A stretch of DNA of 64,000 nt, taken from Acidimicrobiia bacterium (lineage in GTDB: Bacteria > Actinomycetota > Acidimicrobiia > Acidimicrobiales > AC-14). Positions 16,476-22,116 of the stretch are shown piece by piece. A program made the position numbers and the translations under genes. Each line of letters opens with the position of its first letter. Position 1 is the stretch's first letter. Under the pieces are notes generated by a model. That model was not told the origin of the DNA and did no database searches. It saw only the letters and a list, made by a program, of their open reading frames with translations. The stretch is taken from contig JAHFUR010000004.1 of the NCBI GenBank assembly GCA_023264995.1, positions 1 through 64,000 of the forward strand, in the 5' to 3' direction.

Positions 16476-17399
16476 CTACGGCAGGTTGCCGATGACCTCG
16501 AGGATCGCGGCCCGCACCGCCGGGAGTGCCGTGTAGTCGCGGGGGTAGCCAGCCCGCAGGAGGGCCGTGGAGGTCACGAGGCGGGTGAACCGGTCGAGCT
16601 CGGCCACCTGGCGCTCCCGGCCCGAGCGCTCCACCCGGAAGGCCTGGGGGTACAGGGCCATCATCGCGTCGCGGGCGGGGACAGGGCGGACAGAGACCTC
16701 CTCGGCCGGATCACCCAGGAGGACGATGGCCCGCAGCGGCACCGCCGGGCCGGGGGCCAGGGTGCCGGCCACGACGCGGCGCTTGGCGTTCGTCTCCGAC
16801 ACCGGCCTGGCTGTCGCTCCGTCGCCGGCGAACGCAGCCGCCGAGTCCGGCCAGAGGCGCACGCCCGGGTACGTCGGCACGGCCGCGAACCCTCTGCCGG
16901 CCTCCACGAGCCGGATGAAGTCATCGCTCACCAACGTGGCGCCGCCGGCGACGAAGCCGGCAGCCAGGCTCGACTTGCCCGCCCCCGAGGGCCCGACGAA
17001 GGCGACGGCGCCGGCGCCGGCGACGACGGCGCTGGCGTGGAGGACGAGCGACCCGTCGAGGGCGAGGATGTGGGGTACGACGTGATCGAGCAGCAGGTGG
17101 CGCACGGTCGCGGGGCCCGTCTCGGGGCCCGGCGTACAGGTGATGGCGCGCTCGGCGGGGGTGACGACGAAGTCGGCGACGCCGGCGAAGCGCAGCAGGT
17201 AGCGCTGGCCGTCACCCTCGATACGCAGCCCCACCGTGCCCTCGGCGGTGACGGCCTGGTGAACCAAGGGCAGGTCGCCCACGGGAGGTGAGGTAGCCAG
17301 GTCGAACCGCCACGCGGCACCGCCGGCGACAGTTCCGGACATCTCCGGAAGAGGCACGCTCGTGACGAGCGTGAGCCCGGCCACCACGTACGCCGACAT
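16476..17399 (-). CDS. HPr-kinase-like lasso-peptide kinase
   Basis: 307 residues from ATG 17399. The N-terminus MSAYVVAGLTLVTSVPLPEM has the form of HprK-related proteins in lasso clusters. The P-loop GPSGAGKSSLAAG lies near residue 145, followed by an acidic VSDDFIRL segment typical of HprK catalysis. Homologues such as the paeninodin kinase phosphorylate the C-terminal Ser of the precursor. Here the precursor ends in Thr. The gene starts about 66 bases after the precursor stop on the same strand. The open frame extends upstream, but the earlier part overlaps the precursor and is not conserved-looking. Confidence 0.85.
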   Translation of the reverse strand: MSAYVVAGLTLVTSVPLPEMSGTVAGGAAWRFDLATSPPVGDLPLVHQAVTAEGTVGLRIEGDGQRYLLRFAGVADFVVTPAERAITCTPGPETGPATVRHLLLDHVVPHILALDGSLVLHASAVVAGAGAVAFVGPSGAGKSSLAAGFVAGGATLVSDDFIRLVEAGRGFAAVPTYPGVRLWPDSAAAFAGDGATARPVSETNAKRRVVAGTLAPGPAVPLRAIVLLGDPAEEVSVRPVPARDAMMALYPQAFRVERSGRERQVAELDRFTRLVTSTALLRAGYPRDYTALPAVRAAILEVIGNLP

Positions 17400-17464
17400 G
17401 ACCGCGCGTACCCCCAAGGCCAGTGTGGTCGGCGGCGCCACGCCGATCGCGGGCCTCCCGTTGA

Positions 17465-17617
17465 CTAGGTCGGGCGGGTCATTCCGGGGATGAGCCCCCC
17501 GTCGATGCCACTTCCGACCCCGTTCTGGGTGAGCGCGGTGATGGACCCGTAGATGACAAGCGTGGGCGTGGTGTAGGCCCTCTTGCCATTGTCTGTGGGC
17601 CCGCTCGCTGCCATCAT
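17465..17617 (-). CDS. Lasso-peptide precursor (leader plus core)
   Basis: 50 residues. The leader contains Y15-x-x-P18-x-L20-xxx-G24-xxxxx-T30, the RRE-binding pattern of lasso precursors. If T30 is position -2, the core is NGVGSGIDGGLIPGMTRPT (residues 32-50) with Asp at core position 8, giving an eight-residue macrolactam. If cleavage is after N32, the ring would have seven residues (Gly1-Asp7). Two ATG codons at 17617 and 17614 follow AAGGGGAG with good spacing. It lies between the cyclase and the kinase genes, 23 bases after the cyclase stop. Confidence 0.85.
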   Translation of the reverse strand: MMAASGPTDNGKRAYTTPTLVIYGSITALTQNGVGSGIDGGLIPGMTRPT

Positions 17618-17640
17618 CCCGCTCCCCTTCGTCTGCCGAA

Positions 17641-19542
17641 TCAGCCGCCAATACCACCGTGCGTTCCCGCCGACGTGATGGTAGCACCGAGCCAGCGCTC
17701 GACTGAGGCAACCATCCACAGGTACCACAGGTGACGGTGGAAGGCCTGGCCGGCCCGGTAGTTGCGCTCCGTCTCCGCGTACATGGCCTGCACCCGAGAC
17801 CCGTCAACCCATCCCCTCCGGTCGACGTCCAGATCGGCGAAGAGCGCCGCTCCATCCTGGCTCTCCAGTTCAGCCGCGAACACGTACGCGTAGTTGGCCT
17901 TGTCCCGCCGGGCCCGGACCGGCTCGGGGACCAGCCCGACCATGGCCTGGCGGAGCATGTACTTGGTGACGCTGTCCCGTCGCCGCTGATCCTCCGGGAC
18001 GGCCAGGGCGAACTCGACGACGCGACGGTCGTCGAAGGGGTCCCGCAGCTCGAGCCCGGCCCAGGCGTTGGCCCGTTCGGCCATCTCGTAGGCGTGGGCG
18101 TGCCAGCCGCTCACCAGCCGCCCGGCGAGATCGGCGACGGCAAAGCTGGGCCGGCGGCCGAAGGACTCCTCCACCTGGGCGTCGAGGCCGACCGAGGTCG
18201 CCCACGCCGGCCGGATGTGGTCAGGGATCGTCCGGCGACCGGTGGCCGAGCGCAGGGCACGCCTGGCCGGAGCCGGCACGAGGGGCTTGACGCCATAGCG
18301 CCACAGGTGCCGCGCCATGCCGCGGGGCGTGGGCGTTCCTATCTCGGCCTGGAGCCGGGCACCGACCTCCCGGACGTGACCGCGACGCAGCGCGTCAGCG
18401 AGCAGGTAGCTCCCAGCCAGCCACTCGTCGGGGCCGGCGCCCGTGAACACACTCCGGCACCCGCGCTGGCGGGCCTCGGCCCAGTACCCCGTGTGGGCCA
18501 TGGTCGACGGGTAGTCAGGGAGGTCGAGGTACCGGTGCACCTGGGCGTCGTAGGGCGCCGGCCCGAACGGGCCGGGCTGGAAGCGGCGCACATCCAGCTG
18601 GTGATGCTCGGCAACCGCGTCGACATACCGGGTCTCGTCGCACGACCGGCCCGGGAACACCATGGAGTACACGTCGATGTCGCCGCCGGTGAGCGCGCCG
18701 GTTCCCAAGGAGGCAATGACGCCGACGACCGACGACGAGTCGACGCCCCCGCTCAACGAGACGGCCTGTCGCCACGGACCGCCGATGCGGGCCCGGACCG
18801 CCTGGGCGCACAGGTCGAGGAGGTGCTCGGCGTACTCCTCGTCGCTGCTGTGGCGGACCTCGAGGCCCGGGTCCCACTCCCAGTACCTCAGCAGCCGGGC
18901 CCCACGGGCCGACACGACCAGGTAGTGCGCCGGAGGAAGCCGCGCCATCGAGCGGTACATCGTCGCGTCGCTGTTCGACAACCGCATGCTGAGGAACTCG
19001 GCGATCATGGCCTCGTTCGGCTCGCGCGGCACCGACGGGTCGACGAGGACGGCCTGGGGCTCGGACGCAAACCGGAACGTGGACTTGGTCGAGGCGTAGT
19101 AGAAGGGCCGCTTGCCCAGGAAGTCGCGGGCGCACACCAGCTCCTGGCGGGCACCGTCCCAGAGGGCGAAGGCGAAGTCGCCGACGATGCGGGTGATGCC
19201 GGCGAGGCCCCACCGCTGGTAGCAGCGCAGGACGAGCTCGGGGTCGCTGCCGTCGCGCAGGTCGTCGCGGGCCGGGCCGAGGGCGGCGACCAGGTCGTCG
19301 CGGTTGTCGACCCGGCCGTCCATGACCAGGCCCAGCTCGGGCGCCTCCGACCGCACGGGTTGGGCCTCTGCGAGCGACTGCTCGGTCGTCCGGAACAGGC
19401 AGTGGCCCAGACCGACCGGCCCCGCGGCCCACTGGTGGATGCCATCAGGGCCTCGGTGGGCCATGGCGGCAGTCATAGCCGCCACGTCATCGAAGGCCGC
19501 AGGCCGGCCGTCGACGTGGAAGATGCCGGCGATCCCGCTCAC
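17641..19542 (-). CDS. Lasso-peptide cyclase (asparagine-synthetase-like, protein C)
   Basis: 633 residues from GTG 19542. An N-terminal class II glutamine-amidotransferase-like domain (MSGIAGIFHVDGRP) lacks the catalytic Cys2 of true asparagine synthetases. The C-terminal ATP-pyrophosphatase domain has the PP-loop SLSGGVDSSSVVG near residue 255. Lasso cyclases adenylate the core Asp or Glu side chain and close the macrolactam. The GTG start overlaps the B2 stop (GTGA), which indicates translational coupling. Genuine asparagine synthetase is unlikely given the missing Cys2 and the B1/B2 neighbours. Confidence 0.92.
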   Translation of the reverse strand: MSGIAGIFHVDGRPAAFDDVAAMTAAMAHRGPDGIHQWAAGPVGLGHCLFRTTEQSLAEAQPVRSEAPELGLVMDGRVDNRDDLVAALGPARDDLRDGSDPELVLRCYQRWGLAGITRIVGDFAFALWDGARQELVCARDFLGKRPFYYASTKSTFRFASEPQAVLVDPSVPREPNEAMIAEFLSMRLSNSDATMYRSMARLPPAHYLVVSARGARLLRYWEWDPGLEVRHSSDEEYAEHLLDLCAQAVRARIGGPWRQAVSLSGGVDSSSVVGVIASLGTGALTGGDIDVYSMVFPGRSCDETRYVDAVAEHHQLDVRRFQPGPFGPAPYDAQVHRYLDLPDYPSTMAHTGYWAEARQRGCRSVFTGAGPDEWLAGSYLLADALRRGHVREVGARLQAEIGTPTPRGMARHLWRYGVKPLVPAPARRALRSATGRRTIPDHIRPAWATSVGLDAQVEESFGRRPSFAVADLAGRLVSGWHAHAYEMAERANAWAGLELRDPFDDRRVVEFALAVPEDQRRRDSVTKYMLRQAMVGLVPEPVRARRDKANYAYVFAAELESQDGAALFADLDVDRRGWVDGSRVQAMYAETERNYRAGQAFHRHLWYLWMVASVERWLGATITSAGTHGGIGG

Positions 19543-19991
19543 GCCGGCGGGAGGGGCAGGGGGCCGTAGCGCTCGGCGACGTCGGCGGTGTCGTTCAGGG
19601 GCCGGCCGGCGTGCTCGACCCAGGCGTGGGCGCTGAGGTCGCGAGCCGCCAGGCGGACGCCGATGCGGAGTTGGCTGTCGACGCCCTGGGCGCGTAACAG
19701 CGTCCGTAGGACGATGGACTGCGCCAGGCACCGTGACGGCACCGGCAGGCGCCCGGCGGCGATCCTCACTACCCGGGCGGTCGTGGCCGCGGTGCCGGCC
19801 TCGCCGGCCTTCGGCCGGCGCAGTGGCACGGCCTGCCGGCTCCATCGTTCGACCCGCCCGTACCCGAACACCTTGAGGGCGGCCGTGGTGGCTGGCAGCA
19901 GGATGGCGGCAGCGCCGAGAAGGGCCCACTCGCGCCGGCTCAGCGCCAGCAGCGCCCGGCGGTCAGGCGTCGTGGAGCTCGGCGAGGCCAT
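19539..19991 (-). CDS. Lasso-peptide leader peptidase (transglutaminase-like, B2)
   Basis: 150 residues from ATG 19991. A hydrophobic helix lies at about 18-38. The papain-like core has the catalytic Cys in VPSRCLAQSIVLRTLLRAQG, His in SAHAWVEHAG, and an Asp in PLNDTAD. B2 proteins cut the leader from the precursor with B1 as recognition partner. The first 29 bases overlap the end of B1, and the stop overlaps the cyclase start. The exact start is uncertain because no Shine-Dalgarno sequence is clear. Confidence 0.88.
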   Translation of the reverse strand: MASPSSTTPDRRALLALSRREWALLGAAAILLPATTAALKVFGYGRVERWSRQAVPLRRPKAGEAGTAATTARVVRIAAGRLPVPSRCLAQSIVLRTLLRAQGVDSQLRIGVRLAARDLSAHAWVEHAGRPLNDTADVAERYGPLPLPPA

Positions 19992-20250
19992 GGTCGACCA
20001 ACTGGCCGAGCAACGCCTCGAGGTCTTTGCGGAGGGTCGGGGCGTCGATGTCGTACTCGGAGGCGAGCTGCTCGAAGGCCGCCTCGATCGACGGCGACGA
20101 CGACAGGACGTCCCACATCCGGGCGCCAACCTCGTCGAGGCCGAAATAGGTCTCGGTGCCCAGGTTGAGGAGCACCAGCTCGCCGTCGAGCGGGCGAGTC
20201 ACAACCTGGGCCGGCGTCGACACCCGCATGGCGAAGGAGAGTGAGGTCAT
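19963..20250 (-). CDS. Lasso-peptide recognition protein (PqqD-like RRE, B1)
   Basis: 95 residues from ATG 20250 (GTG 20256 is an alternative). It has the PqqD fold pattern: LDGELVLLNLGTETYFGLDE, then GARMWDVL and a helical C-terminus with LLGQLVDHGLAEL. B1 proteins bind the leader and deliver it to B2. It is the first gene of the minus-strand lasso operon. A TACGCT hexamer lies just upstream, in a short region shared with the divergent exporter gene. Confidence 0.9.
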   Translation of the reverse strand: MTSLSFAMRVSTPAQVVTRPLDGELVLLNLGTETYFGLDEVGARMWDVLSSSPSIEAAFEQLASEYDIDAPTLRKDLEALLGQLVDHGLAELHDA

Positions 20251-20256
20251 GGCCAC

Positions 20257-20280
20257 GCAAAGCGTACAGAATCGAGCCCA
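20257..20280. promoter_or_regulatory. Divergent promoter region of the lasso operon and exporter
   Basis: The minus strand carries TACGCT (20266-20261), four bases before GTG 20256 and ten before ATG 20250. The plus strand carries TACAGAAT (20265-20272), eight bases before the exporter GTG. The two -10-like hexamers share the central TA, so the two transcription units probably fire from one compact site. Confidence 0.45.
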
Positions 20281-22116
20281 GTGACCGGAACAGACGAGGC
20301 TGGCCCGCCGGCCCGGCGCCCGAGCCTGCGCCGGCTCCCCGACCTGGCCCTACGGGCCGTCCGGCTGGTCTGGAAGGCGGCCCGAGGCGAGCTGCTGGCC
20401 TACGTGGCCCTTCAGACGTCGTCGGCCGCCGGCATCGGCGTCCAGCTCCTCCTCGGCCGGCGGGTCCTGGCCGTGGTCGTGGCCGGCTCGACGGCCCACC
20501 GCAGCCTGGGCGACGTGGCCCCCGAGCTGCTCGGGCTGGCGGCGGTCACCGCCGCCCTCGGCTTTGCCGGCGCGGCGCTGGCCGAACGCCGCCAGATCCT
20601 GTCCGAGCTGGTCGAGCGCCACGTCCAGGGCCAGATCATCGATGCCGTCTCCGACGTCGACCTGGCCGCCTTCGAGGACGCCACCTTCCACGACCGCCTC
20701 CGCCGGGCACGGGTCAACGCCGCCACCCGGAGCTGGGAGGTCACCTACGCCCTCGTCACCCTTTCCAGCGGGCTCACCGGCCTGGTCGCCCTAGGCGCCG
20801 TCCTCACCGGCATCGAGCCCCTGGTCCTCCCCCTCGTGCTGGTCTCCTATGTGCCCCTGGCCCTGGCCACCGGGCGCAACAGCCGGGCGTCCTACGAGTT
20901 CGCCTACGAGATGACCGCGGCCGACCGCGAGCGGACCTACCTGAGCGAGGTGCTGACGGGGAAGGCCGAGGCCAAGGAGATCCGGCTCTTCGACCTGTCC
21001 GCCTTCCTCCGCCGGCGCTACGACGACCTCTACGCCCGCCGTATCGCCGAGCTGCGCCGGGTGGTCCGCCGGCGCCTCCGCCGGGCCCTCCTGGCCACCG
21101 GCGGGAACTCCATCGTGACCATCGTGGCCCTGGGGGCCCTCCTGCAGCTCACCCTCAGCGGGCGGATCTCCCCGGCCGACGCCGGCGTGGCGGCCGTCGC
21201 CCTCCAGCAGCTGGCCTACCGGCTGCGGGCCATCAACTCGAGCACCGCCTCCCTGCACGAGTGCAGCCTGTTCCTCGACGACCTGATCTCCTTCCTCGAC
21301 CTCCGCACCACCATCCAGGCCGAGCGGCCCACCGGGCCGGCGCCGGCGTCCTTCCGCCGGCTGGCCCTCGACGACGTCTCCTTCGTCTACCCGGGCACCA
21401 CCCGCGCCGTCCTGTCGGGCGTCTCCCTCGAGATCGGCGGCGGCGACATCGTCGCCCTCGTCGGCCGCAACGGCTCGGGCAAGACCACGCTGGCCAAGAT
21501 CCTCTGCGGCCTCTACCAGCCGACGTCGGGCCGGATCCTGTGGGACGGCACCGATGTCGCCGGCGCCGACCCGGCCGAGCTCCGGCGGGGCATCACCGCC
21601 ATCTTCCAGGACTTCGTGCACTACGACCTTCCGGCGCGCGACAACATCGCCCTCGGCGACCACCGCCGGGCCGACGACATGGCCGCGGTCCACCGCGCCG
21701 CCGCCCTGGCCGGCGTCGACCGGCTCCTGTCCGGGCTCCCCGACGGCTATGGCACCCGGCTCAGCCGGTCCTACGCCGGCGGGACCGAGCTGTCGATCGG
21801 CCAGTGGCAGCGGGTGGCCCTGGCCCGGGCCTTCTTCCGGGACGCGCCGTTCCTCGTGCTCGACGAGCCGACGGCGGCGCTCGACGCCGAGGCGGAGTAC
21901 GAGCTGTTCGAGCGCATCCGGGCCCTCCAGCAGGGCCGGGCCGTCCTGCTCATCTCCCACCGGTTCTCGAGCGTCCGCTCGGCCGACCGGATCTACGTGC
22001 TGGAGAAGGGCGCCGTGGCCGAGTCAGGGTCCCACGCCGAGCTGATGGCCCGGCAGGGCCGGTACGCCGAGATGTTCACGCTCCAGGCGTCGGCCTACCT
22101 CGACGAGGTCGAGTAG
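20281..22116 (+). CDS. ABC exporter, fused membrane and ATPase domains (lasso protein D)
   Basis: 611 residues from GTG 20281. An ABC type I membrane domain of about six helices (residues 30-320) is followed by the ATPase: Walker A VGRNGSGKTTLAK near 400, signature LSIGQWQRVALARA, Walker B FLVLDEPTAALD and the H-loop ISHRF. In lasso clusters the D protein exports the mature peptide and gives self-immunity. Divergent pairing with B1 across 30 bases supports that role. By sequence alone it could be any multidrug-type exporter. Confidence 0.88.
   Translation: MTGTDEAGPPARRPSLRRLPDLALRAVRLVWKAARGELLAYVALQTSSAAGIGVQLLLGRRVLAVVVAGSTAHRSLGDVAPELLGLAAVTAALGFAGAALAERRQILSELVERHVQGQIIDAVSDVDLAAFEDATFHDRLRRARVNAATRSWEVTYALVTLSSGLTGLVALGAVLTGIEPLVLPLVLVSYVPLALATGRNSRASYEFAYEMTAADRERTYLSEVLTGKAEAKEIRLFDLSAFLRRRYDDLYARRIAELRRVVRRRLRRALLATGGNSIVTIVALGALLQLTLSGRISPADAGVAAVALQQLAYRLRAINSSTASLHECSLFLDDLISFLDLRTTIQAERPTGPAPASFRRLALDDVSFVYPGTTRAVLSGVSLEIGGGDIVALVGRNGSGKTTLAKILCGLYQPTSGRILWDGTDVAGADPAELRRGITAIFQDFVHYDLPARDNIALGDHRRADDMAAVHRAAALAGVDRLLSGLPDGYGTRLSRSYAGGTELSIGQWQRVALARAFFRDAPFLVLDEPTAALDAEAEYELFERIRALQQGRAVLLISHRFSSVRSADRIYVLEKGAVAESGSHAELMARQGRYAEMFTLQASAYLDEVE

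Follow-up and report, generated by a model that had tools for sequence, protein, structure and literature searches.

A lasso peptide cluster with an HprK-like kinase in an Acidimicrobiia bacterium, with relatives in Nitrospira and a possible phosphosite inside the ring

Which peptide is made by a six-gene cluster of an Acidimicrobiia bacterium, and which of its hydroxyl groups would be modified by the kinase encoded beside the precursor? The cluster lies in the window, i.e. the whole stretch of 64,000 nucleotides analysed here (contig JAHFUR010000004.1). Five genes are located on the minus strand: B1 (19963-20250; 95 aa), a PqqD-like RiPP recognition element (RRE); B2 (19539-19991; 150 aa), a leader peptidase with transglutaminase fold; C (17641-19542; 633 aa), an asparagine-synthase-like lasso cyclase; A (17465-17617; 50 aa), the precursor peptide; and K (16476-17399), an HprK-like peptide kinase of 307 aa when counted from its ATG, with alternative GTG starts possible upstream at 17408 and 17441. 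The ABC exporter D (20281-22116, plus strand; 611 aa) is divergent from B1. The positions of all six genes agree with those given in the first-pass annotation, and so do the overlaps of 29 bases between B1 and B2 (19963-19991) and of GTGA between B2 and C. A Shine-Dalgarno-like AAGGGGA precedes the ATGATG start of A, and a single B2-family match is found in the window's own genome.

The family matches point to a lasso peptide system. B1 matches PqqD (PF05402; 64 bits, Pfam cut-off 23.4), and its nearest solved chain is TbiB1 (5v1u, E = 9.9e-15, PDB comparison). B2 exceeds the cut-offs of Transglut_core3 (PF13471; 83.4 bits against 26, Pfam) and of lasso_biosyn_B2 (NF033537; 80.9 bits against 33, NCBIfam), and its motifs SRCLAQ, AHAWVE and LNDTAD bear out the earlier description of a Cys-His-Asp protease. 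C contains Asn_synthase (PF00733; 135.7 bits) and GATase_7 (PF13537; 87.6 bits), both over the Pfam cut-offs, and its top NCBIfam match is the lasso cyclase NF033535 (404 bits, E = 1e-120), under the cut-off of 525. As previously read, C has an SGGVDS loop and lacks Cys2, since the protein starts with V-S-G-I-A-G. A has no Pfam match and scores 26.5 bits with lasso_cyano (NF033528, NCBIfam), under the cut-off of 33. D carries ABC_tran (PF00005; 109 bits, Pfam), and its best matches in the fetched loci are exporters of loci from the window's own class (44-49% identical). The first-pass annotation's proposal of a complete lasso cluster with a kinase of HprK type is therefore supported as the best reading, with the cluster being of class II type, because the HMMs did not fail as a set and the genes did not match another RiPP class: B1 and B2 exceed their Pfam cut-offs and B2 exceeds the lasso cut-off of NCBIfam as well, whereas C and A fall under the curated NCBIfam cut-offs. 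The phosphosite, the ring register and the Nitrospira link were absent from that annotation and are added here. A plasmid origin of the cluster was also considered and rejected, as the 340 plasmid records matching C are all below 60% identity (the eight listed rows at most 32%) and include no close relative.

It seems scarcely probable that the cluster makes no lasso at all and is instead a linear phosphopeptide system of the LPP type, whose AsnB-like protein would do something other than lasso cyclisation. Such systems, as described in PMC13381572, pair an RRE with a kinase of HprK type that modifies Ser3, an internal residue; they have no cyclase, and their protease is signal-peptidase-like. 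The window shares the RRE and the kinase but possesses B2 and C. Three loci from the window's phylum (L104, L105 and L107) hold B1, B2, A and K with no C in the fetched stretch, and the window's C scores under the lasso cyclase cut-off; however, it is present, overlaps B2, lacks Cys2 and has the lasso cyclase as its top NCBIfam model, and an Asp sits exactly at core position 8 of A.

The precursor itself allows the ring to be placed. A possesses the YxxPxL leader, Thr-2 and an Asp/Glu at core positions 7-9, and its computed register (Tyr-17, Pro-14, Leu-12, Gly-8 and Thr-2) fits the leader positions required in lasso precursors (PMC10368454). Only with Asn as the first core residue do these positions hold, and Asp then falls at position 8. 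The leader would thus comprise 31 aa (17525-17617, minus strand), and the predicted core (17468-17524, minus strand) is NGVGSGIDGGLIPGMTRPT with a ring between Asn1 and Asp8. An alternative register with Gly as residue 1 (seven-residue ring GVGSGID) was rejected because Tyr, Pro, Leu and Thr move to -18, -15, -13 and -3. In the predicted core, Gly4, Ser5, Asp8 and Gly9 are found, Ser5 (codon 17510-17512, minus strand) is the sole ring hydroxyl, and the C-terminal residue is Thr19 (codon 17468-17470, minus strand), not Ser. The computed [M+2H]2+ of the predicted lasso is 890.954 unmodified and 930.937 with one phosphate. Asn as ring residue 1 has one published precedent, metanodin (PMC12670498), where it is likewise placed by Thr-2. 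The metanodin cluster is Steroidobacterales-related and has an E. coli-type ABC architecture according to that source, unlike the window, and the word kinase is absent from the text of the paper while the window's cluster has K.

The gene called a kinase in the first-pass annotation is HprK-like and carries the full motif, but its match to Hpr_kinase_C is partial and weak (20.3 bits, Pfam cut-off 33.3). The motif H-x15-GPSGAGKS...DD shows the reported spacing of the His, P-loop GxxGxGKS and Asp-Asp of HprK-type lasso kinases, as stated in PMC10368454. A weak AF2 model (mean pLDDT 52.5) gives VIA Z scores of 9.4-9.7 against HprK/P entries (1kkl, Z 9.7, 3.4 A over 123 residues; 1jb1, Z 9.7; 1knx, Z 9.6) and up to 10.8 against PEPCK. 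HprK-like proteins of at least 140 bits adjoin B2 in 18 of the 21 genomes of the class sample with an over-cut-off B2; the kinase is hence not special to the window's cluster, and its reading as a rare feature was ruled out. The search profile was built from the class loci themselves, and the hits were for this reason cross-checked by motif and Pfam: the strict motif occurs in 7/18 (window included), a canonical P-loop in 8/18, and Hpr_kinase_C at E up to 0.1 in seven of ten class rows submitted, one of them over the cut-off. The partial Pfam match, and the strict motif missing from 11 of these 18 proteins, would suit a kinase that is inactive or has another target, leaving the 19-residue lasso unmodified. 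We consider this quite improbable, as the window's K has the complete His, P-loop and Asp-Asp motif and the order A-then-K recurs in Nitrospira loci. The peptide product probably carries a phosphate.

The closest relatives of the cluster appear to lie outside its class: A, B1, C and K are each matched best by Nitrospira clusters rather than by those of the window's own class. The resemblance of A to other precursors is more than chance, because a phmmer search with A by itself against the 30,351 frames from the fetched loci gives 27 others at E < 0.01 (best 1.2e-7), 23 of them in Nitrospira loci (three being repeat fetches) and four in the window's phylum. The grouping of the cyclase with Nitrospira is well supported (13 Nitrospira rows plus the window, support 99/97; 19 Nitrospira rows plus the window in a quick tree, SH-aLRT = 98). 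That of the kinase is only moderately supported: a clade of 13 Nitrospira rows and the window is recovered (96/90) and the 21 best BLASTP matches among 63 other kinase rows are all from Nitrospira, but constraining the window's kinase to a nine-row clade with several C-terminal-Ser loci lowers the log-likelihood by 3.0 (p-AU = 0.39). Since this placement survives the AU test, the kinase tree was discarded as decisive proof, and the kinase alone cannot settle the grouping. The strict motif H...GxxGxGK[ST]...DD is shared by all 23 Nitrospira kinase rows and the window. A contig scan with C by six short peptide patterns confirmed 7 of 56 stretches, all from Nitrospira or Nitrospirae; a closer relative in other phyla is possible, because genome sampling kept to the phyla of the window and of Nitrospira.

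The kinase-bearing Nitrospira clusters (L050, L052, L055, L144-L157 and L159) resemble the window in their homologous A, B1, C and K, in the order B1-B2-C-A-K and in a Gly4-Ser5-Asp8 ring. Some differences are also seen. Core position 1 is mostly Gly, but also Lys, Glu, His, Ser or Thr, compared with Asn in the window; in the four loci inspected (L055, L137, L150 and L157), a PRMT-like methyltransferase gene separates A from K, and the majority of the relatives belong to this methyltransferase-bearing version, which the window does not share; and no exporter above 150 bits occurs near the cluster in the Nitrospira flanks except in L052, about 4.5 kb beyond K, in contrast to the divergent D of the window. 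No description of this Nitrospira lasso family was found, at listing level, in the literature on lasso peptides and Nitrospira.

The relatives offer a view of the phosphosite. Among 20 unique Nitrospira cores (21 loci), a ring Ser/Thr is present in 20/20 and a C-terminal Ser/Thr in 0/20. The cores with eight-residue rings (n = 11) share Gly4-Ser5 (10/11), Asp8 (11/11) and Gly9 (10/11) while the remaining ring positions are highly variable; the exception is L154, with Lys5 together with Ser1, Ser3 and Thr6. L157, by way of example, has the ring TGFGSGAD and no hydroxyl residue at its C-terminus. Nine-residue rings have Pro3-Ser/Thr4-Gly5 in all seven distinct first-ten sequences. L160, a Nitrospiraceae locus that has a kinase but falls outside the clade, contains neither Ser nor Thr among its first 18 residues. 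A ring Ser/Thr is not special to the Nitrospira clade, since 21/28 cores of other kinase loci have one. C-terminal Ser, by comparison, is found in 8/28 cores (8/19 loci) of other kinase-type loci against 0/20 in Nitrospira (Fisher p = 0.014), although this contrast group is weak because five of its eight loci (L056, L067, L073, L085 and L129) have kinases without the strict motif. These counts leave out repeat fetches of L050, L055 and L052 (L141-L143), L160 with its kinase outside the clade, L140 and L158, where no precursor was found, L105 as a near copy of L104, L083 with an odd leader and a Ser end, and L117 with two candidates, one ending in Ser and the other in Gly; with the four candidates of L105, L083 and L117 added, C-terminal Ser amounts to 10/32 in the other group.

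On balance, we slightly favour a class II lasso peptide in which K phosphorylates the ring Ser5, and not Thr19. The site is suggested by the conservation of Gly4-Ser5 in the related Nitrospira clusters, a conservation that could instead serve folding or target binding. Internal Ser phosphorylation has precedents in BsfK and LppK, both acting on Ser3 (PMC10368454 and PMC13381572, respectively). If K acted on Thr19, the same cluster would be of paeninodin type with Thr in place of Ser. The kinases of paeninodin, ThcoK, SyanK and pseudomycoidin target a C-terminal Ser (PMC8498205, PMC9266682), and a terminal Thr in the window, the C-terminal Ser of other kinase-type loci and the kinase placement allowed by the AU test agree with such a site. 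We regard it as unlikely, if still plausible, because the window is linked by its cyclase and precursor with Nitrospira, where none of the 20 cores has a terminal Ser or Thr, and because Ser is the residue modified at the published sites; at an internal site, BsfK is reported to tolerate a Ser-to-Thr swap and LppK to reject it (PMC10368454, PMC13381572).

The favoured route with Ser5 would proceed by steps that are proposed because known families perform them. B1 would bind the leader via Tyr-17, Pro-14 and Leu-12, and K would phosphorylate the linear precursor, the form on which paeninodin-type HprK-like kinases act (PMC8498205, PMC9266682), most likely at Ser5 inside the ring rather than at the C-terminal Thr19. 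B2 would then cleave after Gln-1, C would activate Asp8 and link it with the Asn1 amino group, closing the ring about the threaded tail, and the finished product would be exported by D.

Compared with described systems, the gene set is similar to paeninodin-type clusters (PadeK, ThcoK, SyanK and PsmK), which comprise A, split B1/B2, C, an exporter and an HprK-like kinase (PMC8498205, PMC9266682). The C-terminal Ser is modified in these, whereas the window's core ends in Thr and its relatives in neither. In the bsf cluster of Bradymonas sediminis (BsfA/BsfK) a ring residue is phosphorylated and B1 aids the kinase (PMC10368454). BsfK has the motif and spacing of the window's K as far as its description, rather than its sequence, allows comparison. 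Where that system has Ile-2, Gly1 and Ser3, the window has Thr-2, Asn1 and Ser5; bsf also includes a nucleotidyltransferase, and none was found among the annotated cluster genes of the window.

The cluster thus belongs to a known kind, with a suggested Ser5-in-ring site departing from the usual position, as most known lasso phosphates sit at the tail end. More broadly, and as a tentative proposal in which doubt somewhat prevails, the window and Nitrospira clusters may represent one lasso family across two phyla, in which the kinase phosphorylates ring Ser5 or its equivalent before closure and the cyclase tolerates Asn, Lys, Glu, His, Ser or Thr in addition to Gly as the first core residue. Such a phosphosite would be a third kind, after the C-terminal Ser and Ser3 of the ring. 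With several precursors sharing the motif, the family lends itself to testing. If Ser5 is the true site, HprK-like peptide kinases would have moved their target from tail to ring at least once more than the cited literature describes. The phosphate would then be on the collar that encircles the thread, and could there hold the thread in place or alter the target. The unusual first residues (Asn in the window; Lys, Glu and His in its relatives) bear on the tolerance of lasso cyclases and are relevant to engineering.

All six genes that the first-pass annotation had assigned to a lasso-peptide cluster are found as it placed them, five on the minus strand and the sixth divergent. The minus strand carries B1, the RRE protein (19963-20250; PqqD by domain search), the leader peptidase B2 (19539-19991), the cyclase C (17641-19542), the precursor A (17465-17617) and the HprK-like kinase K (16476-17399), while D (20281-22116, plus strand) is an ABC exporter by domain search. 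The overlaps proposed at the same time, 29 bases between B1 and B2 and GTGA between B2 and C, agree as well. B2 matches the lasso leader peptidase model above the curated cut-off; among NCBIfam models the asparagine-synthase-like C scores best with the lasso cyclase, below cut-off. The genes that border the cluster are of housekeeping type, with one for a MiaB/RimO-like radical SAM protein at one end and, at the opposite end, those for FtsK and a small DUF5679 protein. These genes very probably constitute a lasso peptide cluster.

In the precursor, Gly-8, Thr-2 and the required leader positions Tyr-17, Pro-14 and Leu-12 (PMC10368454) are satisfied only with Asn as the first core residue. The predicted core is NGVGSGIDGGLIPGMTRPT, with Asp at position 8, and a ring between Asn1 and Asp8 is likely; the computed mass of such a lasso is 1779.894. 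The first reported case of Asn1 is metanodin, from 2025 (PMC12670498).

Relatives occur in Nitrospira. A genome-contig scan with C confirmed seven loci at 38-41% identity, six of them under the title Nitrospira sp. and the seventh under Nitrospirae bacterium, and each of the seven genomes also gave a kinase match with E no higher than 2.9e-42. Among 175 genomes of the Nitrospira family, 97 gave some kinase match (E up to 0.001) and 24 a match at 1.5e-20 or better; these 24 loci were fetched. The precursor adjoins K in 22 of them, and none was found in the other two (L140 and L158). B1, B2, C, A and K are grouped in 14 distinct loci (L050, L052, L055, L144-L147, L150, L151, L153, L154, L156, L159 and L160). 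Our literature search did not find this lasso family in print.

Several variant arrangements were also observed. A PRMT-like methyltransferase gene lies between A and K in Nitrospira clusters (L055:10228-11388 and L157:4904-6100); its C-terminal part resembles a PqqD/RRE-type domain by eye, which Pfam does not show. In L137, L138, L148 and L149, A and K adjoin, but the roughly 6 kb upstream of A contain none of B1, B2 and C; at least two of these genomes hold B1-B2-C elsewhere (L049, L051), as a split lasso cluster. Seven tandem lasso-type leaders at L060:6918-7658 precede cores of 10-13 residues, insufficient for an ordinary threaded tail and mostly with Gly-Ser or DGS near position 4; they adjoin B1, B2, a C-like gene and the gene for an HprK-like protein that lacks a canonical P-loop. 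Three loci (L104:4124-6019, L105:7335-9230 and L107:7458-9393) combine B1, B2 and K with a precursor whose core exceeds 40 residues and lacks Asp/Glu at 7-9; no cyclase was found in the fetched stretches, and they look like a linear phosphopeptide system employing B2. A C-like gene of 30.5% identity is also present on an archaeal plasmid, from Halopiger (NC_015658.1:23612-25336), where the annotation under this match includes a lasso B2.

When compared by BLASTP with the proteins of the fetched loci, the window kinase has Nitrospira proteins as its top 21 matches and the window cyclase as its top 17. B1 and the precursor are likewise best matched in Nitrospira; the exceptions are B2 and D, best matched in loci of the window's own class. 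The window groups with 13 Nitrospira rows in both the cyclase tree (99/97) and the kinase tree (96/90). Pairing its cyclase with L101 was rejected (p-AU 0.017), and moving its kinase to a nine-row clade of the window's phylum was not (p-AU 0.39). The cluster is possibly a mosaic, within the limits of sampling, of own-class-like B2 and D and Nitrospira-like A, B1, C and K.

Although its HPr-kinase domain match is partial and below cut-off, K retains the motif of His, P-loop and Asp-Asp, spaced as reported for BsfK (PMC10368454). AF2 gave a weak model of K, with a mean pLDDT of 52.5, which nevertheless aligns to PEPCK (Z up to 10.8) and to HprK/P (1kkl and 1jb1, Z 9.7; 1knx, Z 9.6). PEPCK and HprK/P are two families with a common P-loop fold. 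These alignments fit an HprK-type kinase but are no evidence of activity. Of 395 sampled genomes of the window's class, 21 have B2 above cut-off; 18 of these 21 loci encode an HprK-like protein of at least 140 bits, seven with the strict motif (H...GxxGxGK[ST]...DD), which is present in 23/23 Nitrospira kinase rows.

The lasso kinases described so far modify a C-terminal Ser (PMC8498205, PMC9266682) or, with BsfA as substrate, ring Ser3 (PMC10368454); LppK targets Ser3 of a linear peptide (PMC13381572). Twenty unique Nitrospira cores from 21 loci (L160 left out) all have a ring Ser/Thr, and none has a C-terminal one. The 11 with eight-residue rings conserve Gly4 (10/11), Ser5 (10/11), Asp8 (11/11) and Gly9 (10/11) and vary widely at positions 1, 2, 3, 6 and 7; nine-residue rings have Pro3-Ser/Thr4-Gly5 in 7/7 distinct sequences. 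This conservation could also serve folding. Several observations speak against Ser5, namely Lys5 in L154, the L160 ring without a hydroxyl residue, the C-terminal Thr of the window core, and the presence of ring Ser/Thr in 21/28 cores that other kinase-type loci encode. Because the window core agrees at all four conserved positions (4, 5, 8 and 9) and Ser5 is its sole ring hydroxyl, Ser5 is the likeliest site; judged from these comparisons, the balance tilts slightly towards K phosphorylating it.
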